Source of the DNA: Proteinivorax tanatarense
Lineage (GTDB): Bacteria > Bacillota > Proteinivoracia > Proteinivoracales > Proteinivoracaceae
Reading direction: 5' to 3'
Length of the DNA: 64,000 bases
Assembly: GCF_040267685.1 (NCBI RefSeq)
Contig: NZ_CP158367.1
Location: forward strand, 744,001 to 808,000
Both the position numbers and the translations under genes were made by a program. Below are positions 6,223 to 64,000 of the stretch, in pieces. The notes under the pieces were generated by a model, which saw nothing but the letters and a program-made list of their open reading frames with translations, was not told the origin of the DNA and did not search any database. Position 1 is the stretch's first letter; the number at the start of each line of letters is the position of its first letter.

Positions 6223-7494
6223 ATGAACAACAGCGTTAGGTATACAACATATAAGTGGACTATATGGGGACTTTTAGCTTTGTCATTTGTTGTCGTTTTT
6301 TTTCATAGATATTCAACGGGGGTTGTTGCTGAAGACTTTGCCCGTGACCTAGGACTTAGCCCAGAACGACAGGGAGCCCAGCTGGGTAATTTAGCTGCCA
6401 TGTATTTTTGGGCTTATGCTTTAATGCAGATACCTGCTGGTGTCATGGCAGATTATATAGGACCTAGAAAAACCACAGCCTACGGCATGCTACTAGCTGG
6501 GATAGGATCTACTATTTTGGGCTATGCAGTTAATATTCAAATGGCATACATAGGACGGCTCTTAGTAGGGATCGGTGTGTCAGGTGTTTTTATTTCTATT
6601 CTAAAAATACAAGCAGTTTGGTTTAAAAAGGAAGAATTTCCTAGCATTTCAGGTTGGACTTCATTGATTGGAAATATTGGCGGGGTATTGGCTACATATC
6701 CTTTTGCATTATTGGTGGGGTTTATTGGATGGCAAATGTCATTTAAAGCCATGGGTGTTGTCTCAGTTTTACTTTTTGTTTTAACACTGTTATTAGTTAA
6801 AGACAGCCCACAAGATGTGGGTTTAAAAGGACCAAATGATCAGGAGATTATGGCACGACCACAGGGAAGTGTTGTACATGGAGTTTTAAAGGTATTACTC
6901 AATAAGCACACATGGCCGAACTTTATTATTTTGTTTTGCTTAATGGGGACGATAGTATCGTTTTCTGGTTTGTGGGGGATCCCTTATTTAACACAGGTTT
7001 ATAATATAGGCAGGGAAACGGCCTCCCTTTATGTACTTGTTTTAACCGTCGGCGTAATGGTTGGTTCTTTAATTGTAGGATACCTTGCGAAATATGTAGG
7101 TTCGGTAAAAAAGATTATATTAAGCGGGTCTATAATTTTTACAACAATTTGGGGTTACAAAATATTTTTGGCAGGTGGTAAGCCCAGCCTTACAATATTG
7201 CCGGTACTTTATTTTCTCATGGGGGTTTCTGCAGTTTCCTTCATTTTATCATTTACAAATGTTAAAAATGTAAATAACCCAGGCTTATCTGGAACTGCTA
7301 CTTCAATCGCTAACGTAGGAGGTTTTTTAGGTGCAGCGTTGCTAAATAATCTAATTGGGGTGGTGCTGGATATACAGGGGCAGTCTTTAAATGTAGCTGG
7401 AACAGACGCTGTCGCTTCTTTTCAATTTGCATTTGCAATATACTTTGTTATGGGGTTAATAGCGATAGTTGCTACAATTTTACAGTCAGAATAA
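6223..7494 (+). CDS. Major facilitator superfamily transporter
   Basis: The 423-residue protein has about 12 membrane helices in two six-helix halves. The cytoplasmic loop 2-3 motif is readable as GVMADYIGPRKTT (MFS signature G..aD..G.r). The start FFHRYSTGVVAEDFARDLGL resembles the GlpT/NarK-like and sugar-acid transporter branch, but the substrate cannot be named. Start: ATG behind AGAAGGTGAG. A second G-rich site and a ten-codon frame (6187-6219) lie just upstream. The gene ends in its own terminator. Confidence 0.85.
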   Translation: MNNSVRYTTYKWTIWGLLALSFVVVFFHRYSTGVVAEDFARDLGLSPERQGAQLGNLAAMYFWAYALMQIPAGVMADYIGPRKTTAYGMLLAGIGSTILGYAVNIQMAYIGRLLVGIGVSGVFISILKIQAVWFKKEEFPSISGWTSLIGNIGGVLATYPFALLVGFIGWQMSFKAMGVVSVLLFVLTLLLVKDSPQDVGLKGPNDQEIMARPQGSVVHGVLKVLLNKHTWPNFIILFCLMGTIVSFSGLWGIPYLTQVYNIGRETASLYVLVLTVGVMVGSLIVGYLAKYVGSVKKIILSGSIIFTTIWGYKIFLAGGKPSLTILPVLYFLMGVSAVSFILSFTNVKNVNNPGLSGTATSIANVGGFLGAALLNNLIGVVLDIQGQSLNVAGTDAVASFQFAFAIYFVMGLIAIVATILQSE

Positions 7495-7501
7495 AGAAGA
7501 T

Positions 7502-7557
7502 AAATAAGTGTTGCTCCCCTTATGATTGATTGCAAAAAGGGAGCAACACTTATTTTT
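7502..7557 (+). terminator. Terminator of the MFS gene
   Basis: AAATAAGTGTTGCTCCC pairs with GGGAGCAACACTTATTT around a loop of about 20 bases and is followed by T residues. Confidence 0.88.
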
Positions 7558-7684
7558 AAAATAAATAATTCCAGTTTAAAAAACTACTATTCAAGAGGGT
7601 GCAAAATTTGATACAATGAGGTAGAGAGAATTAGTCGTGAAAAATTTAACTAGCAGTTGCAGTAGGAGAGGAGATAGGGGAAAT

Positions 7685-35056: not shown

Positions 35057-35243
35057 GTGTTTAATTTAAAAGCCTAACTTTATATTTAACTTTTACACTT
35101 TCGGAAGTTATAACAAAGTTAGTCATAGAATTCTAAGGGGCTAGGAAGGACTTTTACGACTTTCAGCGAATATATTTAGTAAGTCTAAATAATAATAGAC
35201 GGCACTATTTTTGGTGCTTCTTTTCATTGTCAGGGGGATTACA

Positions 35244-53957: not shown

Positions 53958-54515
53958 TTGAAGACAAGGTTTAAGGTATACGGACTTATAATAATTTTAG
54001 TGTTAGCCATATTATTTGTTTTGCAACAAACTGATGTATTATGGAGACATCTGTACCCAACAGAGTATAATGAACTTGTTTATGAGTATAGTGAAAAATA
54101 TGACTTAGACCCCTATTTGATTTTTTCTATAATTAGGATAGAAAGTAGGTATAATGAAGACGCTGTATCTAGAAGAGGAGCATTAGGTTTAATGCAGTTA
54201 ATGCCTGATACAGCAAAATGGATTGGAGAAAAGCAAGATATTGAGATTAACAACAACGAAGATATCTTAAACCCTGAAACAAATATTGCTTTAGGATCAT
54301 GGTACTTAAAACATCTTATAGATTACTATGATGACAAAACTATTGCAATTGCAGCTTACAATGCCGGTCGTGGTAATGTGAGTAGATGGTTAGAAGAAGG
54401 TTTATGGGATGGCACCTTAAATTCTGCAGCTGACATTCCTTTTGCAGAAACTAGAGAATATGTATACAAAGTTAATATAGCCCATAAGAAATATAGAGAA
54501 ATCTATTACGACTAA
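53958..54515 (+). CDS. Membrane-anchored lytic transglycosylase (Slt family)
   Basis: The 185-residue protein has an N-terminal membrane helix (LIIILVLAILFVLQQ) and an SLT domain: LDPYLIFSIIRIESRYNEDA (catalytic Glu in RIESRY), SRRGALGLMQLMPDTAKWIG, NIALGSWYLKHL and IAAYNAGRGNVSRWL. It cleaves peptidoglycan outside the membrane. TTG start behind TTAGGGGGA. It ends the polA block. Confidence 0.93.
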   Translation: MKTRFKVYGLIIILVLAILFVLQQTDVLWRHLYPTEYNELVYEYSEKYDLDPYLIFSIIRIESRYNEDAVSRRGALGLMQLMPDTAKWIGEKQDIEINNNEDILNPETNIALGSWYLKHLIDYYDDKTIAIAAYNAGRGNVSRWLEEGLWDGTLNSAADIPFAETREYVYKVNIAHKKYREIYYD

Positions 54516-54529
54516 ATATATTTTCACAA

Positions 54530-54588
54530 AAAATGAGAACTGTGTTCAAACATTATATTATCAATGTTTGAACACGGTTCTCATTTTA
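54530..54588 (+). terminator. Terminator of the polA-coaE-slt block
   Basis: Arms of about 25 bases (AATGAGAACTGTGTTCAAAC and its near-exact complement) close around ATATTATC with one G-T pair. The bases from here to 54896 hold no gene or clear structure. Confidence 0.85.
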
Positions 54589-54896
54589 AATTAATTAGAG
54601 GCTTTATTTTGAAATAAAACTTTATATCCCCCCCACTTTTCTTACTATACTATTACAATTAGATTAAGGGTTTTAGAAATAAAATCGGGTGGGACACCGT
54701 TAATCGATAAGGTGTTGCTAAATTATAAAATAAAATATAAAGTTGCATATATATTTACAAAAAGGTACTAGAGAAGTTTTAAGCCGTCACAGAAAGGCAA
54801 ACAACAACTTTTATCATATAAAAATATAGAAGTAAACCCTATTACTGAACATTTAAAAGGTTTGCCAAAAAATATTACAAAAAATATTTAAACTTT

Positions 54897-54923
54897 GCAG
54901 GAGTATTACAAATAATGTAGAAT
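54897..54923 (+). promoter_or_regulatory. Sigma-H-type promoter of binding protein 1
   Basis: GCAGGAGTA and GTAGAAT fit the sigma-H consensus (RnAGGAwww, RnnGAAT). From AGGA to GAAT is 21 bases, the same as in front of both paralogues. Confidence 0.65.
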
Positions 54924-54971
54924 ATAGTAACTGTAAAGTAATGTGATAAAAATATAGGGAGGTAGAAAAAA

Positions 54972-56636
54972 TTGTTAAAGAAAAGTTTGATTTTGGTGTT
55001 GAGTTTGATGCTGTTAGTTGGTTTTGCTGTTGGGTGTGGACCAGCAGTTCCTGACGTAGGTGGACAAATAATATATGGCATGGCAGGTGACCCAGATAGT
55101 TTTAATCCAATATTGTATCAGGATTCGGCTTCTGGTGATGTTCTTGATTTTATGTTTGATGGTATGATGAGAAGAGATCATGAGTTTGAATTAGTTCCTC
55201 ATCTTGCTACCGACTGGGATATTAGTGATGACGATTTAGAGATTACCTTTAACCTAAGAGATGATGTTTTATGGCATGATGGTGAACAGTTTACAGCCCA
55301 TGATGTGGAGTTTACTTTTTCCACCATGATGGACCCAGATTACCCAGGTGTTAGAGGTGGAAACTTTACCGCCATTGAAGAAATTGAAATTATTGATGAC
55401 TATGAAATCAAATTTTACCTTAGTGAACCCTTTGGTCCTATACTGAATAACCTGGCTTTTAGCATTATTCCTAAACACATATTTATAGACCAAGTTGAAG
55501 AGGATGTGTCAGAGCTTGACGCTCATCCAGCAAACAGAGGTCGAACTCAACCAGTAATAGGAACAGGTCCCTTTGTATGGGGAGAATGGGTAGACGGTGA
55601 ATATGTTAGACTTGGAAGAAATGAAAACTATTGGATGGATGACGAATATCCGTTTGTTTCAGAAGTTTTGTTTATTGATGTACAGGATTCAGAAGCTCAG
55701 ATGAGGGCGCTAGAGCAAGGTGATATTAATATGGCGGCTCTTACGCCTGAAGAAAGAGAGCATATAATGGATGAAAAAGGTCCTGAAGGAGATAACACTT
55801 TAAAATTTGAAATAATTGACGATTTGGGATACACTGCTATTCAATACAACCACAGAGAAGATGCTTTTGGTGAGGGTAAAGTAAATCCGTTTACAGATGT
55901 TAAGGTGCGTCAAGCAATTACCCATGCATTTAATCGCCAGCAAATAATTGATCAAATATTAGACGGTCAAGGTTATCTAATGCATAGCCACTTCCCTAGA
56001 TCTTCTTGGGCGTATTCAGAAGACCATGTAACCAAGTTTGACTATAATCCAGAACGTGCTGAAGAATTATTAGACGAAGCTGGTTGGAAAGAAGTAGATG
56101 GATCAGACTATAGACATCTAGATGGTGATATTGACAATCAGAAGCTTGAGTTTACACTGTTGACTCATCCAGAAAATAACATCAGGGTTGATATGCAGGT
56201 AATAGCTCAAGAACAGCTAAGAGAAGTAGGAGTAAAGGCAGATCCTGAATTAGTAGAATGGCAAACTTTCCTAAATAATCATATTGATGTAGGTGAGTTT
56301 CATGCAGCTATACTAGGATGGAACTTAGGGTCAGATCCTGATCCATATAATATCTTCCATAGCGATAACATCGACACAGGGTTTAATCATATAGGGTATG
56401 AAAATGAAGATGTGGATCGTTTAATAGAACAAGGGCGTTATGCTGTAGATCCTGAAGAGCGTGCCGAATACTATGCCGAACTTCAACAGATAATGTCTGA
56501 AGATTTGCCCTACACGTTCTTATTTGCTCAAACAAGAACAAGAGCCTTACCAGTTAATTTAGAGGGATATAAAGTTGGAGAAATTGCTTTATACTATCCT
56601 GAACAATGGTACTTCGAAGAAATTTCTGATGAATAA
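54972..56636 (+). CDS. Peptide-binding lipoprotein (solute-binding family 5), copy 1
   Basis: The 554-residue extracellular receptor of a peptide ABC transporter has a signal with lipobox (LLVGFAVGC, lipid attachment at Cys 22). The family 5 pattern follows: DPDSFNPILYQDSASGD, VPHLATDWDISDDDLEITFN, TAHDVEFTFSTMMDP, PFTDVKVRQAITHAFNRQQI. It is very acidic. TTG start behind AGGGAGGTAG. It is about 96% identical in protein to copy 2. Oligopeptide versus dipeptide preference cannot be read. Probably it works with the permeases from 61396. Confidence 0.92.
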   Translation: MLKKSLILVLSLMLLVGFAVGCGPAVPDVGGQIIYGMAGDPDSFNPILYQDSASGDVLDFMFDGMMRRDHEFELVPHLATDWDISDDDLEITFNLRDDVLWHDGEQFTAHDVEFTFSTMMDPDYPGVRGGNFTAIEEIEIIDDYEIKFYLSEPFGPILNNLAFSIIPKHIFIDQVEEDVSELDAHPANRGRTQPVIGTGPFVWGEWVDGEYVRLGRNENYWMDDEYPFVSEVLFIDVQDSEAQMRALEQGDINMAALTPEEREHIMDEKGPEGDNTLKFEIIDDLGYTAIQYNHREDAFGEGKVNPFTDVKVRQAITHAFNRQQIIDQILDGQGYLMHSHFPRSSWAYSEDHVTKFDYNPERAEELLDEAGWKEVDGSDYRHLDGDIDNQKLEFTLLTHPENNIRVDMQVIAQEQLREVGVKADPELVEWQTFLNNHIDVGEFHAAILGWNLGSDPDPYNIFHSDNIDTGFNHIGYENEDVDRLIEQGRYAVDPEERAEYYAELQQIMSEDLPYTFLFAQTRTRALPVNLEGYKVGEIALYYPEQWYFEEISDE

Positions 56637-56650
56637 AACTTACTAAACTA

Positions 56651-56685
56651 AGTAGCCTTGACTATCAAGTCAGGGCTACTTTTTT
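56651..56685 (+). terminator. Terminator of binding protein 1
   Basis: AGTAGCCTTGACT pairs with AGTCAGGGCTACT (with a G-T pair) around ATCA and is followed by a T run. Confidence 0.88.
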
Positions 56686-56841
56686 GCTCTTATAGTAAAG
56701 CGGTACTTAGTTCGGGGTGTAAAAGGAAAGACAGAGGGATAATTTGGTCTAACAAACAATTTGAAAAGTTACAGATTTATTTCAAGTGAAGTCGCGAAAC
56801 ACCCTCTAAAAACCAAAAAAAATAAAAAAATTAAAATTGTT

Positions 56842-56868
56842 GCAGGAATATTACAAAATACACCGAAT
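56842..56868 (+). promoter_or_regulatory. Sigma-H-type promoter of binding protein 2
   Basis: GCAGGAATA and CACCGAAT. From AGGA to GAAT is 21 bases. Confidence 0.62.
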
Positions 56869-56923
56869 AATATGTAATATGAAAGTAATATTTAAGATTG
56901 TTATTAAAAGGAGGTAGAAAAAA

Positions 56924-58588
56924 TTGTTAAAGAAAAGTTTGATTTTGGTGTTGAGTTTGATGCTTTTAGTTGGTTTTGCTGTTGGGTGTGGACCAGCAGT
57001 TCCTGACGTAGGTGGACAAATAATATATGGCATGGCAGGTGACCCAGATAGCTTTAATCCAATATTGTATACGGATTCGGCTTCTGCTGATGTTCTTGGT
57101 TTTATGTTTGATGGTATGATGAGAAGAGATCATGAGTTTGAATTAGTTCCTCATCTTGCTACCGACTGGGATATTAGTGATGACGATTTAGAGATTACCT
57201 TTAACCTAAGAGATGATGTTTTATGGCATGATGGTGAACAGTTTACAGCCCATGATGTGGAGTTTACTTTTTCCACCATGATGCACCCAGATTACCCAGG
57301 TGTTAGAGGTGGAAACTTTACCGCCATTGAAGAAATTGAAATTATTGATGACTATGAAATCAAATTTTACCTTAGTGAACCCTTTGGTCCTATACTGAAT
57401 AACCTGGCTTTTAGCATTATTCCTAAACACATATTTATAGACCAAGTTGAAGAGGATGTGTCAGAGCTTGACGCTCATCCAGCAAACAGAGGTCGAACTC
57501 AACCAGTAATAGGAACAGGTCCCTTTGTATGGGGAGAATGGGTAGACGGTGAATATGTTAGACTTGGAAGAAATGAAAACTATTGGATGGATGATAATTA
57601 TCCATTTATTTCAGAAATTTTGTTTATAGATGTACAGGATTCAGAAGCTCAGATGAGAGCGCTAGAGCAGGGGGACATTAATATGGCGGCTCTTACGCCT
57701 GAAGAAAGAGAGCATATAATGGATGAAAAAGGTCCTGAAGGAGATAACACTTTAAAATTTGAAGTAATTGACGATTTGGGATACACTGCGCTTCAGTACA
57801 ACCACAGAGAAGATGCTTTTGGTGAAGACAAAGTAAATCCGTTTACAGATGTTAAGGTGCGTCAAGCAATTACCCATGCATTTAATCGCCAGCAAATAAT
57901 TGATCAAATATTAGACGGTCAAGGTTATCTAATGCACAGCCACTTCCCTAGATCTTCTTGGGCGTATTCAGAAGACCATGTAACCAAGTTTGACTATAAT
58001 CCAGAACGTGCTGAAGAATTATTAGACGAAGCTGGTTGGAAAGAAGTAGATGGATCAGACTATAGACATCTAGATGGTGATATTGACAATCAGAAGCTTG
58101 AGTTTACACTGTTGACTCATCCAGAAAATAACATTAGGGTTGATATGCAGGTAATAGCTCAAGAACAGCTAAGAGAAGTAGGAGTAAAGGCAAACCCTGA
58201 ACTAGTAGAATGGCAAACTTTCCTAAGTAATCATATAGATGTAGGTGAGTTTCATGTAGCGATACTGGGATGGAACTTAGGGTCAGATCCTGATCCATAT
58301 AATATCTTCCATAGCGATAACATCGACACAGGTTTTAATCATATAGGGTATGAAAATGAAGATGTGGATCGGTTAATAGAGAAGGGGCGCTTTTCTGTAG
58401 ATCCTGAAGAGCGTGCCGAATACTATGCCGAACTTCAACAGATAATGTCTGAAGATTTGCCCTACACGTTCTTATTTGCTCAAACAAGAACAAGAGCCTT
58501 ACCAGTTAATTTAGAAGGATATAAAGTTGGGGAAACTGCTTTATACTATTCTGAACAATGGTATTTTGAAGATATTTCTGCGGAATAG
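56924..58588 (+). CDS. Peptide-binding lipoprotein (solute-binding family 5), copy 2
   Basis: The 554 residues differ from copy 1 at about 20 positions, for example YTDSASADVLGF, MMHPDY and IEKGRFSVDPE. The changes cluster near residue 40 and in the last 100 residues. The lipobox and all family motifs are kept. The first 60 coding bases and the ribosome site are almost identical to copy 1, showing a recent tandem duplication including the 5' region. TTG start behind AGGAGGTAG. Confidence 0.92.
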   Translation: MLKKSLILVLSLMLLVGFAVGCGPAVPDVGGQIIYGMAGDPDSFNPILYTDSASADVLGFMFDGMMRRDHEFELVPHLATDWDISDDDLEITFNLRDDVLWHDGEQFTAHDVEFTFSTMMHPDYPGVRGGNFTAIEEIEIIDDYEIKFYLSEPFGPILNNLAFSIIPKHIFIDQVEEDVSELDAHPANRGRTQPVIGTGPFVWGEWVDGEYVRLGRNENYWMDDNYPFISEILFIDVQDSEAQMRALEQGDINMAALTPEEREHIMDEKGPEGDNTLKFEVIDDLGYTALQYNHREDAFGEDKVNPFTDVKVRQAITHAFNRQQIIDQILDGQGYLMHSHFPRSSWAYSEDHVTKFDYNPERAEELLDEAGWKEVDGSDYRHLDGDIDNQKLEFTLLTHPENNIRVDMQVIAQEQLREVGVKANPELVEWQTFLSNHIDVGEFHVAILGWNLGSDPDPYNIFHSDNIDTGFNHIGYENEDVDRLIEKGRFSVDPEERAEYYAELQQIMSEDLPYTFLFAQTRTRALPVNLEGYKVGETALYYSEQWYFEDISAE

Positions 58589-58618
58589 AAGTGACATAAA
58601 AAATGCTTCTAGATTTAT

Positions 58619-58662
58619 AAAAAAAGCCACATTTATGGTTAGCATAAATGTGGCTTTTTTTA
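58619..58662 (+). terminator. Terminator of binding protein 2
   Basis: AAAAAGCCACATTTATG pairs with CATAAATGTGGCTTTTT around GTTAG. The next 340 bases contain no supported gene. Confidence 0.92.
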
Positions 58663-58998
58663 TGTTTTTTATGTTAATAAATAGCATTAAAATTAATCAA
58701 CGCTCCGCCCAAATTTGCAAATTGGAAGATGTTAAGCTTGGAGTATGAAATATTTTACCTTAAGAAACCTACATAACTAGCGTTATATAAGTTACTATTT
58801 GTAGGATTCCCCACTTTAAGATATATCAAGATCTAATAGTTGGAAACGGAGAGTATCTGGTGCTGAATAGTAGTTAAACAAAAAAGTTGGCTTTGGTAAA
58901 ATTACGCAGCAAAAGTTACAAAAGGAATAGACAACAAATGTATTACAATGGTCTATTCTGAATTATTACTGAATTGTTTCTATAAAAAGGAGAGGGTG

Positions 58999-59027
58999 TT
59001 GACAAAAAAGAGGAGAAGAGGTAATAT
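58999..59027 (+). promoter_or_regulatory. Putative sigma-A promoter upstream of binding protein 3
   Basis: TTGACA (58999-59004), 17 bp, TAATAT (59022-59027). It lies about 65 bases before the sigma-H-like promoter of the same gene. Confidence 0.5.
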
Positions 59028-59092
59028 ATTTTCATGCAGAAAACGATTAAACACGGGAAGTTAATGCAAAAAAATAAAAAAAAGTAACTTTT

Positions 59093-59119
59093 GCAGGAGT
59101 TTGCTATTTTTTATAGAAT
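59093..59119 (+). promoter_or_regulatory. Sigma-H-type promoter of binding protein 3
   Basis: GCAGGAGTT and TATAGAAT. From AGGA to GAAT is again 21 bases, although the surrounding sequence has diverged from copies 1 and 2. Confidence 0.65.
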
Positions 59120-59215
59120 ACATGTATTAACAAAGTAATATTACAGTTACTTTGTTTCGTTGGAGTGATATTATGTTAATATAATGTTGCTCAAAAAATA
59201 TAGGGAGGTATGAAA

Positions 59216-60883
59216 ATGTTGAAAAGAAGTTTGGTGTTGATGTTGAGTTTGGTTTTAATTGTAGGATTTGCTGCAGGATGTGCTCCAGCTGCTGTGCCAG
59301 ACACAGGTGGGCAAATAACAAGGGCTATGGTGGGTAGCCCAGATAACTTCAATCCTATTTTGTATACGGAATCAGCATCTGGGGATATTATACCCTATTT
59401 ATTCGATGGTATGATGAGAAGAGATCATGAATTCGAGTTGGCTCCTCATATAGCAAAAGATTGGGATATCAGTGAAGATGACACTGAAATCACCTTTTGG
59501 TTACATGAAGGAGTAAAATTTCATGATGGTGTAGAACTTACAGCCCATGATGTAGAGTTTACGTTTAGCACCATGATGGATCCCGATTACCCAGGGACTC
59601 GAGGAGGTAACTTTCAGCATATTGAAAATATTGAAGTTATAGATGACTATCAAATTAAATTTACTTTAAGTGAGCCTTTTGGTCCTATTATGCAACATTT
59701 ATCATGGAATATTATTCCCAAACATATATTTGAAGAACAAGCTAAAGAAGATATAAGCGAGCTTGATGCTCACCCTGCAAACAGAGGGCGTAATGTAGAT
59801 GTTATTGGAGCAGGACCTTATAAGTGGGGTGAGTGGGTTGATGGTGAGTATGTAAGGCTTGAAAGAAATGATAATTATTGGATGGATGAAGAATATCCTT
59901 TTATTTCAGAAATTCTATTTATCGATGTACAGGACGTTGATGCTCAAATGAGGGCACTAGAGCAAGGTGATATTAATTATGCCAACGTTCAGGCAAGTGA
60001 TAGAGAACATATTATTGCAGAAAAAGGCCCTGAAGGAGATAATACCCTTAAGTTTGAAGAGGTTGACCAGCTGGGATATACAGCTATTTGGTATAACCAT
60101 AGAGAAGAGGCTTTTGGTGATGATAAAATAAATCCTTTTACAGATGTTAAAGTGCGTCAAGCAATAACACATGCTTTTAATCGTGAACAAATTATTGAGC
60201 AAATTTTAGAGGGACAAGGTTACCTTATGCACAGTCATTTCCCTAGATCTTCTTGGGCATATTCAGAAGATCATGTAACAAAACTTGACTATAATCCTGA
60301 CAAAGCTTCTGAACTACTAGATGAAGCTGGATGGAAAGAAGTAGATGGCTCAGATTATAGACACTTAGATGGGGATATTAGCAATCAAAAGTTTGAGTTT
60401 ACTTTACTGACCCACCCAGAAAATAATACTAGAGTGGATATGCAAGTTATAGCTCAAGAACAGCTAAGAGAAGTTGGGGTTAAAGCTGATCCTGAGCTTG
60501 TAGAATGGCAAACTTTTATAAACAATCACGTTGATGTAGGAGACTTTCATGCTGTTATTTTAGGATGGGATTTGGGAGGAGATCCTGACCCCCATAATAT
60601 TTTCCACAGCGATAGTGCAGATTCAGGATTAAATTATGTTGCGTACGAAAATGAAGATGTTGATCGGTTAATAGAAAAGGGTCGCAATGTAGTAGACCCT
60701 GAAGAACGTGCGAAATATTATGCCGAGCTTCAGCAAATAATGTCTGAGGATCTACCATATACCTTTTTATTTGCAACAAAGCAAACTATTGCGGTGCCTA
60801 TTGGTATGGAGGGGTATAAAGTGGGAGATACTGGTTTATTCTATCCTGAACAATGGCATATAGAGGAAATTAGTGCTGAGTAA
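59216..60883 (+). CDS. Peptide-binding lipoprotein (solute-binding family 5), copy 3
   Basis: This 555-residue paralogue has clearly diverged from copies 1 and 2 but is colinear with them. It has a signal and lipobox (IVGFAAGC), GSPDNFNPILYTESASGDII, RDHEFELAPHIAKDWDIS and PFTDVKVRQAITHAFNREQI. The ATG at 59216 is preferred over the ATG at 59210, which lies only one base after AGGGAGG. It is the nearest of the three to the permease genes and is the likely ancestral receptor of this transporter. Confidence 0.92.
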   Translation: MLKRSLVLMLSLVLIVGFAAGCAPAAVPDTGGQITRAMVGSPDNFNPILYTESASGDIIPYLFDGMMRRDHEFELAPHIAKDWDISEDDTEITFWLHEGVKFHDGVELTAHDVEFTFSTMMDPDYPGTRGGNFQHIENIEVIDDYQIKFTLSEPFGPIMQHLSWNIIPKHIFEEQAKEDISELDAHPANRGRNVDVIGAGPYKWGEWVDGEYVRLERNDNYWMDEEYPFISEILFIDVQDVDAQMRALEQGDINYANVQASDREHIIAEKGPEGDNTLKFEEVDQLGYTAIWYNHREEAFGDDKINPFTDVKVRQAITHAFNREQIIEQILEGQGYLMHSHFPRSSWAYSEDHVTKLDYNPDKASELLDEAGWKEVDGSDYRHLDGDISNQKFEFTLLTHPENNTRVDMQVIAQEQLREVGVKADPELVEWQTFINNHVDVGDFHAVILGWDLGGDPDPHNIFHSDSADSGLNYVAYENEDVDRLIEKGRNVVDPEERAKYYAELQQIMSEDLPYTFLFATKQTIAVPIGMEGYKVGDTGLFYPEQWHIEEISAE

Positions 60884-60919
60884 TAATTAAATATAGGCAT
60901 TTTACATTGGTTAACAACG

Positions 60920-60951
60920 AAGATGCCGACGCAATGACGTCGGCATCTTTT
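60920..60951 (+). terminator. Terminator of binding protein 3
   Basis: AAGATGCCGACG pairs perfectly with CGTCGGCATCTT around CAATGA and is followed by TT. Confidence 0.85.
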
Positions 60952-61395
60952 AAAACCTAAAAACACAAAAATTTTAAATTTTAATTAACAGTTTTCAAAA
61001 CAATTGCTTTAATTCTGTGTATATAGTATAAAAGAAGTAAGATTCAAAATGAAAGAATAATTATCAAAAGAGAGAAAAATCTCAACAGTATCAGCACTTA
61101 ATGAGTTGTAAGACAGATTATAACAGAATTAAGTGCACGGGAAATTGAAAACAGAACCTTTACAAATCTTGGCTATATATAGTAGCAACAAAGAGAAATA
61201 GCTATTAATTTTTTAATATAAAGAAGGAATTTTGTTTGTTATTATCGAATATTAAATTTTGTAGCACAAACTATTATACAACAGACTATTTTTCAGGAGC
61301 CAAAAATCCTGACTTTTATAAATTTTTGTTAGAAGGGGGGAACAAAGCTTTATAAAGGCCTGGCATCAACGCAAATTATTAAAGGAGGTTTAAAT
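60952..61395. other. Intergenic region before the permease operon
   Basis: No gene is seen. A small hairpin TCAGGA/TCCTGA (61293-61312) with a T-rich tail may be a weak terminator. The permease ribosome site AAAGGAGG lies at the end. No riboswitch class is recognised. Confidence 0.5.
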
Positions 61396-62367
61396 ATGTC
61401 GACGTATATTTTAAGAAGGCTTTTACAGATGATTCCAGTTTTTATTGGAATAACAATTGTATCATTTTCAATTGTTCATTTAGCACCTGGTTCGCCTATT
61501 GATATTATGGCGAGTCCGGAGACTCATCCAGATGATTTAGCGAGACTAGAAGAATTATGGGGGTTGAATGACCCGGTTTATGTGCAATATGGTAGATGGT
61601 TTAAATCATTTGTTACCGGTGATTTTGGGAGGAGTTTTAGAACAGGTGAGCCAGTACTAGAAATTCTTCTTGCTAGGTTGCCTAATACTATTCAGCTAAA
61701 TCTCTTTTCTTTGATTTTTGCTTTGGTTATAGCGATACCTGTAGGGATATTTTCAGCGTTGAGGCAGTACTCAGTTGGTGATTATATAGCTACTTTTTTA
61801 ACTTTTTTTGGTATAGCGATGCCCAACTTCTGGTTTGCGCTGTTACTATTATATTTATTCTATATAAGGCTAGAGTGGCTGCCAGGAATGCAGATGCGAA
61901 CGATTGGTGTATCTACAGAAACCCATGGGCTTTTTGTAGTCTTAGTGGATCGAATTCGACACTTGATTCTTCCAACCATAGTTATGGGTACTCATTCTAT
62001 GGCAAGTTTTACCCGTTATATGAGAGCTAGCATGCTGCAGGTAATTAGAGAAGATTATATTAGAACGGCCCGTGCAAAAGGATTATCAGAAAGAGTGGTA
62101 ATATATAAGCATGCTTTGAGAAATGGTATGATCCCACTAGTGACCATACTAACCTTTACTATCCCTAGTCTTTTAGCTGGGTCTGTAGTTATTGAACAAA
62201 TTTTTTCGTGGCCTGGAGTAGGTAGAACAGTATTTCAAGCTATAGGCCAGCGGGATTACAATATTGTTATGGCATTCAACACTGTTATGGCGACACTTAC
62301 TATGGTGTTTATGTTATTGGCAGATATAGCATATGTTGTTGTAGATCCGAGAATAAGATTCGACTAA
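61396..62367 (+). CDS. Peptide ABC transporter permease, DppB/OppB type
   Basis: The 323-residue permease has YILRRLLQMIPVFIGITIVS at the start (the DppB signature), HLAPGSPIDIM, about six helices and the ATPase-coupling EAA loop YIRTARAKGLSERVVIYKHA, then LRNGMIPLVTI. It forms a heterodimeric channel with the next gene product. ATG behind AAAGGAGG. Confidence 0.94.
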   Translation: MSTYILRRLLQMIPVFIGITIVSFSIVHLAPGSPIDIMASPETHPDDLARLEELWGLNDPVYVQYGRWFKSFVTGDFGRSFRTGEPVLEILLARLPNTIQLNLFSLIFALVIAIPVGIFSALRQYSVGDYIATFLTFFGIAMPNFWFALLLLYLFYIRLEWLPGMQMRTIGVSTETHGLFVVLVDRIRHLILPTIVMGTHSMASFTRYMRASMLQVIREDYIRTARAKGLSERVVIYKHALRNGMIPLVTILTFTIPSLLAGSVVIEQIFSWPGVGRTVFQAIGQRDYNIVMAFNTVMATLTMVFMLLADIAYVVVDPRIRFD

Positions 62368-62387: not shown

Positions 62388-63371
62388 ATGTCAGATAAAA
62401 AAAATAAAAACGTTGATGTTAAAGAACTTAATGCTGAGCAGCTATTGAAAGAGGCCGATAAAAAAGCTGAAGATAGTAGTATGTGGAGAACGTTCATTAG
62501 ACGATTTAAAAGGAGTAAAACAGCTATTATAGGTTTTATTCTTCTCATTATTATGTTTTCTACTGCTATTTTTGGTCCTATAATATACGCTGGATTTGAA
62601 TTTTCAATTGGTGATATGGAAATATCATGGGGCGGTACCCATGGACACCATTATAGAAGTCAAAATCTTGATAATAACCTTGCCCCACAAAGCTGGGAGC
62701 ATCCACTAGGTACCGATCACCTTGGTCGTGATGTTTTGGCTCGTGTGCTATGGGGAGGTAGGGTCTCTTTAGCTGTTGGGTTTGTAGCTATGGGGATTGC
62801 TGGAACCATAGGTATTATTTTGGGAGCTAGCGCAGGATATTTTGGCGGCGCTGTAGATATGATTATTATGCGCTTTACGGAGATAATTATGAGCTTCCCA
62901 CTTTTGTTTTTATTGTTAACTATCTTAGCGTTATTTGATGGCGGGGGCATAATGCTTATAATGGTTGTTATTGGATTAACTGGTTGGACTGGCATATGTC
63001 GTTTGGTAAGAGCTGAATTTTTATCTTTGAGGGAGAGGGATTTTACACAAGCAGCACAAGCTCTAGGAGCTAGTGACATAAGAATTATTTTCAAGCATAT
63101 CCTTCCAAATGCAATGGCCCCTTTAATTGTTTCTATAACTCTAGGTGTTGGTGGTGCGATTTTGACTGAGACGACTTTAAGCTTCTTAGGTATCGGAATA
63201 ACTCCCCCCGATCCTAGTTGGGGAAATGTTTTGAATGATGGACAATCTTATTTGAGAGATCATCATCACTTAACAACTTACCCAGGATTATTTATTTTCT
63301 TGACTATTTTGGGTTATAACTTCTTAGGTGATGGTTTGAGAGATTCTTTGGATCCAAGACTTAAACAATAA
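62388..63371 (+). CDS. Peptide ABC transporter permease, DppC/OppC type
   Basis: The 327-residue permease has a charged N-terminal tail, then FIRRFKRSKTAIIGFILLII. It carries PLGTDHLGRDVLARVLWGGR (the DppC hallmark) and the EAA loop FTQAAQALGASDIRIIFKHI, then LPNAMAPLIV. A loop of about 40 residues with GGTHGHHYRSQ contains His residues and lies outside the membrane. ATG 20 bases after dppB, behind GGAAGGGGG. Confidence 0.94.
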   Translation: MSDKKNKNVDVKELNAEQLLKEADKKAEDSSMWRTFIRRFKRSKTAIIGFILLIIMFSTAIFGPIIYAGFEFSIGDMEISWGGTHGHHYRSQNLDNNLAPQSWEHPLGTDHLGRDVLARVLWGGRVSLAVGFVAMGIAGTIGIILGASAGYFGGAVDMIIMRFTEIIMSFPLLFLLLTILALFDGGGIMLIMVVIGLTGWTGICRLVRAEFLSLRERDFTQAAQALGASDIRIIFKHILPNAMAPLIVSITLGVGGAILTETTLSFLGIGITPPDPSWGNVLNDGQSYLRDHHHLTTYPGLFIFLTILGYNFLGDGLRDSLDPRLKQ

Positions 63372-63397: not shown

Positions 63398-64000
63398 ATG
63401 TCGGAAAAACTTCTTAGCGTAAAAAATCTTAAGACATATTTTTATACTGAAGACGGAGTCGTGCCTGCAATAGATGGTGTGAACTTTGACGTTGAGCCTG
63501 GTGAAACCTTAGGGATTGTTGGAGAGTCAGGGTGTGGAAAAAGTGTAACTTCACTTTCGGTTATGAGACTTATCCCAAATCCTCCAGGAAAAATAGAAGA
63601 TGGTGAAATAACTTTTGATGGCAAAGACTTGCTGAGTTTATCAGAAGCAGAGATGAGAAAACTTAGGGGAAATGAGATGTCAATGATTTTCCAAGAACCT
63701 ATGACATCACTTAACCCTGTTTATACAGTGGGAGATCAGATTACTGAAGCAATAAAACTACACCAGGGGAAAGCTCATAAAGAGGCAGTTAAACATGCAA
63801 TTGAGATGCTTACCCTTGTGGGGATACCTCTACCGGAAAAAAGGGTAAATGAATACCCCCATCAATTAAGTGGTGGTATGAGGCAAAGGGTTATGATAGC
63901 TATGGCCCTTTCTTGCAATCCTAAGTTGCTATTTGCAGATGAGCCAACCACAGCTTTGGATGTTACTATACAAGCACAGATTTTAGAGTTAATGAAAAAA
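63398..64000 (+). CDS. Peptide ABC transporter ATP-binding protein, DppD/OppD type (partial)
   Basis: The first 201 codons are in the window and the frame runs off the right edge. It has Walker [16 protein letters not shown] (near residue 43), Q-loop [20 protein letters not shown], signature [16 protein letters not shown] and Walker [16 protein letters not shown]. The order dppB-dppC-dppD predicts a dppF-type partner outside the window. ATG behind GGTGAGCTG. Confidence 0.93.

Follow-up and report, generated by a model that had tools for sequence, protein, structure and literature searches.

What might raise peptide import in Proteinivorax tanatarense, and what purpose would this serve? The question is posed by a locus near the end of the window (the whole 64-kb stretch of DNA that was analysed), where three tandem genes for peptide-type binding lipoproteins lie upstream of a permease/ATPase operon. 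An earlier note had placed AGGA and GAAT exactly 21 bases apart before each binding-protein gene (54899/54920, 56844/56865 and 59095/59116), read the pairs as sigma-H promoters and proposed, by analogy with spo0K in Bacillus, that peptide uptake is turned on as the cell passes into sporulation. All three pairs were found again by direct reading and by script.

Probable promoters and transcription units of the transporter locus

All features of the locus lie on the forward (+) strand. The binding-protein genes occupy positions 54972–56636, 56924–58588 and 59210–60883, and their products (protein identity 96% for the second and 77% for the third) belong to the SBP_bac_5 family (PF00496; 301.8, 301.2 and 300.9 bits against a gathering cut-off of 32.4). 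Downstream lie two permease genes (61396–62367 and 62388–63371) and an ABC ATPase gene truncated at the edge of the window (63398–64000), an open reading frame that is OppD-like by motifs read by eye. The nearest NCBIfam equivalogs are Opp4A for the first binding protein, Opp4B for the first permease and Opp4C for the second, with scores that stay below the respective cut-offs (273 of 650, 312.5 of 450 and 325.8 of 350 bits). Judged from sequence, the transporter can be called only 'Opp-like', with the Opp4 families still scoring best.

A terminator-like hairpin follows every binding-protein gene (56650–56681, 58618–58662 and 60919–60950, the last with a fold of -21.8 kcal/mol), so that the three genes are probably separate transcription units, each with its own promoter and terminator. 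Such an arrangement would allow the binding protein to be made in excess over the permease. An Rfam search of 54500–61450 returned nothing above the gathering score, and its weak matches fell mostly on these hairpins.

The sigma-H consensus that served as seed, RNAGGA followed by RNNGAAT, is the same as in the earlier note. It is present at 54897–54925, 56842–56870 and 59093–59121, where the -35 element is GCAGGA in all three cases and the -10 elements read GTAGAAT, ACCGAAT and ATAGAAT. Measured from start to start, AGGA and GAAT are 21 bases apart at each site, and the called gene starts lie 74, 81 and 116 nt from the base before AGGA. A matrix scan revealed a fourth site, absent from the earlier note, 171 nt before the permease start at 61396 (site 61223–61252; AGGA at 61225, GAAT at 61247). 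Here the elements are GAAGGA, beginning at 61223, and ATCGAAT, with a distance of 22 bases, placing all four sites at 21–22 bases. The weight matrix derives solely from SigH promoters of C. difficile (38 of the 40 rows tabulated in PMC7438776) and is independent of this genome. Applied to both strands of the window (128,000 positions), it ranked the permease site second (21.5) and the binding-protein sites sixth (17.3), tenth (16.3) and twelfth (14.9); this last value, which serves below as score threshold, was chosen after copy 3 had been seen and is therefore post hoc. Dinucleotide shuffles of the upstream regions reached the observed score in 2, 16 and 32 of 1000 cases for genes 1 to 3 and in 1 of 1000 for the permease, making copy 3 the weakest site taken alone. 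The suggestion that copy 3 has kept its motif while the flanking DNA diverged was borne out: from -150 to -300 its identity with copies 1 and 2 is 62–63%, within the range (57–70%) of the least similar pairs in the same comparison. Further strong matches to the matrix in the window lie at 35147 (16.8, before an MFS-type transporter), 33554 (21.5) and 9327 (20.7).

The 5' leader of the permease transcript has features of its own. A hairpin, a G-run and the sequence GCCTGGC are kept in three genomes (61253–61395 of the window; 7486–7627, minus strand, of locus L077; 13190–13335 of locus L080). The three single folds gave z values from -0.06 to -1.24 and the three-sequence consensus was weak; the leader is a possible candidate for a cis-acting RNA.

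Sigma-H-type geometry across the genome

Across the genome (3.09 Mb), the pattern GNAGGA-N14-RNNGAAT is matched at 51 places, compared with 31 for the reversed pattern. Forty-two of these lie outside open reading frames of at least 110 amino acids (binomial P about 1e-20), against a background in which 79% of 3255 sampled 27-mers of the genome fall inside such frames. When the distance from GCAGGA to GAAT was left free, it peaked at 21 (13 places) and 22 bases (10 places) versus a mean of 2.7 elsewhere, among the 100 places listed of 168. The enrichment outside reading frames and the spacing peak together indicate that this geometry recurs throughout the genome in positions ahead of genes.

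The genome encodes sigma-H itself (TIGR02859, 368.1 bits against a cut-off of 294.8). The earlier note had proposed looking for the motif before spo0A and other early sporulation genes, and such sites were indeed found. The motif precedes spoVG (Pfam and NCBIfam scores above cut-off), a gene for a Spo0F-like single-domain response regulator and a minC-like gene (85.0 bits, below the cut-off of 95.25), and by the matrix spo0A and a spoIIAA-like gene also have upstream sites, which score 19.5 and 15.9 and in both cases end in GAAA. The neighbour of the Spo0F-like gene reads like fructose-bisphosphate aldolase, the gene that adjoins spo0F in B. subtilis. A match at spoIVA (L073) was rejected as a promoter, being more akin to a ribosome-binding site and start codon.

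Many of the 51 matches are kept in a relative of the same genus (G001), where the pattern occurs 39 times: 21 have a partner there by downstream gene, and 18 are left after removal of one in a coding frame, of L104 (identical DNA, probably coding) and of a binding protein at 2.88 Mb that pairs only with non-orthologous paralogs. The partnered set includes the spoVG and Spo0F-like loci, RadA, rubrerythrin, an M20 carboxypeptidase-like protein, a SpoIID/LytB-domain protein, GcvT, alanine racemase and binding proteins. Among the unpartnered matches are an M24 peptidase, TldD, DppA, a subtilase, an AbgT-type transporter and indolepyruvate oxidoreductase. The grouping of such genes under peptide salvage is a post hoc impression, as was the choice of locus. 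The binding protein at about 2.88 Mb belongs to a second peptide-type transporter of P. tanatarense, and its site scores 20.3; the neighbouring operon reaches 9.9 and is without a site.

The binding-protein promoters have a second element in common. A GTAAC ... AAAGTAAT box lies just 3' of promoter 1 (54927–54942), where it may be an operator or leader element, and a TGTAAT ... AAAGTAAT box just 3' of promoter 2 (56873–56889). At promoter 3 the AAAGTAAT box sits in a 10-base inverted repeat (AACAAAGTAA ... TTACTTTGTT; 59129–59156) that is also found in copy e of G001. AAAGTAA stands just 3' of GAAT at four of four binding-protein sites of this genome, which are related and thus not four independent events, versus 1 of 38 other sites outside reading frames, the exception being the AbgT-type transporter. 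In copy b of G001 the box is retained where AGGA and GAAT have been lost. The direct repeat TGTAAYN6GTAAY is not enriched by itself (seven matches, as for the reversed control), and two of the seven are at binding-protein promoters. Lying where the binding-protein transcripts begin, the AAAGTAA/GTAAY box is probably the means by which a second regulator, or else a leader element, exerts its effect. A phosphate-type box was also considered for this element, and pstS was located in the genome.

Conservation among relatives and rival readings of the sites

In G001, five binding-protein genes stand in tandem and three have a site (21, 21 and 22 bases), copies b and d being without; the permease there has a site 172 nt ahead of its start, with a score of 19.6. 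A permease site recurs in G002, of another genus in the same family (18.5), where neither of the two binding-protein genes has one. In G008, from another family, sites precede both binding protein and permease (19.6 and 16.5). Upstream of the G002 binding-protein genes (L080, 8886–9062 and 10713–11080), sigma-A-like promoters with GTAAC repeats can be made out by eye, as if sigma specificity had been switched at the same place.

A wider search for the binding protein gave 30 loci. Upstream DNA sufficed for scoring at 29, of which seven attain 14.9, and these fall in five (G000, G001, G008, G018 and G023) of the 22 genomes with a match. For named distant relatives, a scan with one protein yielded no relative and a scan with an alignment yielded 23 loci, of which 18 were used (L129–L143, L147, L148 and L151), five with non-Bacillota titles being left out. 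Eight of 16 binding-protein upstream regions reach 14.9, one of them (L129) resting on an uncertain start codon and scoring 9.2 when scanned from the protein match. For other genes of those contigs the figure is 4 of 101 (Fisher P = 7e-6). Some of these named records may belong to species already represented among the genomes of the wider search. L147, which lacks a complete reading frame and is outside the 16, scores 16.2 when scanned from the match. Several of the distant sites end in GAAA instead of GAAT, and the other eight of the 16 stay below 14.9.

The coding and upstream parts of the tandem genes appear to have had different histories. Coding DNA is alike within species (97% between our copies 1 and 2, 88–95% among G001 copies a to d) and about 75% identical between species, and the upstream regions pair across species: copy 1 with G001 copy c, copy 2 with copy a and copy 3 with copy e. 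The pattern fits concerted evolution, in which gene conversion would have acted on the coding parts (54972–60883 of the window; L077) and left the promoters alone.

Could the sites be sigma-A promoters of the usual kind (TTTGCA or TTGCAG, about 17–18 bases, TAGAAT) that merely resemble those of sigma-H? Copies 1 and 3 do fit the sigma-A pattern at 9 of 12 positions, reading TTTGCA-N18-TAGAAT, and, by eye, sigma-A-like sequences appear to serve in the corresponding position before the G002 binding-protein genes. Where the sites vary, however, it is the TA of a sigma-A -10 element that is lost while AGGA and GAAT are kept (CCGAAT in copy 2, GAGAAT and GCGAAT in G001 copies a and c), the permease site reads ATCGAAT, and sigma-A-like sites show no excess in the region (30 against 27.9 expected); we judge this reading improbable. 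Common descent, with the tandem copies inheriting a sequence devoid of function, draws on the 97% coding identity of copies 1 and 2. It is contradicted by upstream DNA that beyond -150 has diverged to background while the sites are retained, by the permease site and the 2.88-Mb transporter site, neither a copy of these genes, and by the presence of the motif at unrelated genes, and seems to us highly improbable.

We consider it very likely that the sites are sigma-H-type promoters, and we predict sigma-H control of the locus. This interpretation, first put forward in the earlier note, is well supported by computation: by the matrix ranks, the sigH gene, the spacing peak, the placement outside reading frames, the classical targets and the relatives. 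The promoters have the same -35 and -10 elements as those of the C. difficile SigH regulon, where 35 of the 38 rows used (PMC7438776) have a spacing of 21 (16 rows) or 22 (19 rows). Target types common to both are spo0A, spoIIAA, spoVG, minC, an M20 peptidase and ABC-transporter binding proteins, those of C. difficile being for sulfonate. By contrast, that C. difficile table lists no oligopeptide permease or opp gene, whereas here the whole transporter locus bears sites.

Peptide salvage or signalling at the end of growth

Sigma-H owes most of its renown to its role as gatekeeper of sporulation and competence. If its link to peptide importers is truly conserved, the same switch would govern what a starving cell takes in, providing a simple and testable model that couples peptide supply to the sporulation decision outside Bacillus. 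With every probable transcription unit under a sigma-H-type promoter, the locus suggests that peptide import is raised when growth stops. We envisage that sigma-H RNA polymerase would start transcription a few bases 3' of GAAT as growth slows, and that the ensuing rise in binding protein and permease would let the cell salvage peptides as food, and possibly as signals, while it decides on sporulation. An onset of uptake timed to the entry into sporulation would follow from the role of sigma-H in other bacteria.

Import of signal peptides for sporulation, as by spo0K in Bacillus, was the purpose favoured by the earlier note, and this part of its interpretation, unlike the promoter assignment, gains no support here. 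Sigma-H, spo0A and the Spo0F-like gene are all present, and the excerpted account of B. subtilis (PMC4689505) places phr genes, which need Opp, in the SigH regulon; it is phr, and not opp, that it names as SigH targets. However, a search for the RapH_N domain of peptide sensors gave no match, and the sites before the M20 carboxypeptidase-like, M24 peptidase, TldD, DppA, subtilase and indolepyruvate oxidoreductase genes fit nutrition as well. We regard signal import rather than nutrition as the purpose of the sites as doubtful; this estimate concerns function and not the promoter, and does not add to those for the other two rivals. The feeding of signals to sporulation is no more likely than the salvage of peptides once growth has stopped.

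It is tempting to speculate that in this part of the Bacillota sigma-H has long directed peptide salvage, inducing importers, peptidases and amino-acid fermentation genes together at growth arrest. Tandem binding-protein genes, most with their own sigma-H promoter and a second operator, would then let peptide capture rise before, or instead of, sporulation. We rate this broader idea as conceivable but less likely than not. Natranaerobius thermophilus is called non-sporogenous despite its spore genes (PMC3533761).

What appears to be new is not the promoter type, which is known, but its conserved association with these transporters; a literature search of titles and abstract openings, with most subscription papers outside its scope, found no sigma-H-driven oligopeptide permease. 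New relative to the first finding are the permease promoter, the AAAGTAA box that follows the binding-protein promoters on their 3' side, and the deep conservation. A close likeness is to the opp (spo0K) and app importers of B. subtilis, peptide ABC systems expressed around the end of growth: activity of the app promoter increases upon entry into stationary phase, and that of opp earlier (PMC10569065). There, each system is described as a single operon with one binding protein, whereas here three binding-protein genes (five in G001) and a permease operon form units that each have a sigma-H-type site.
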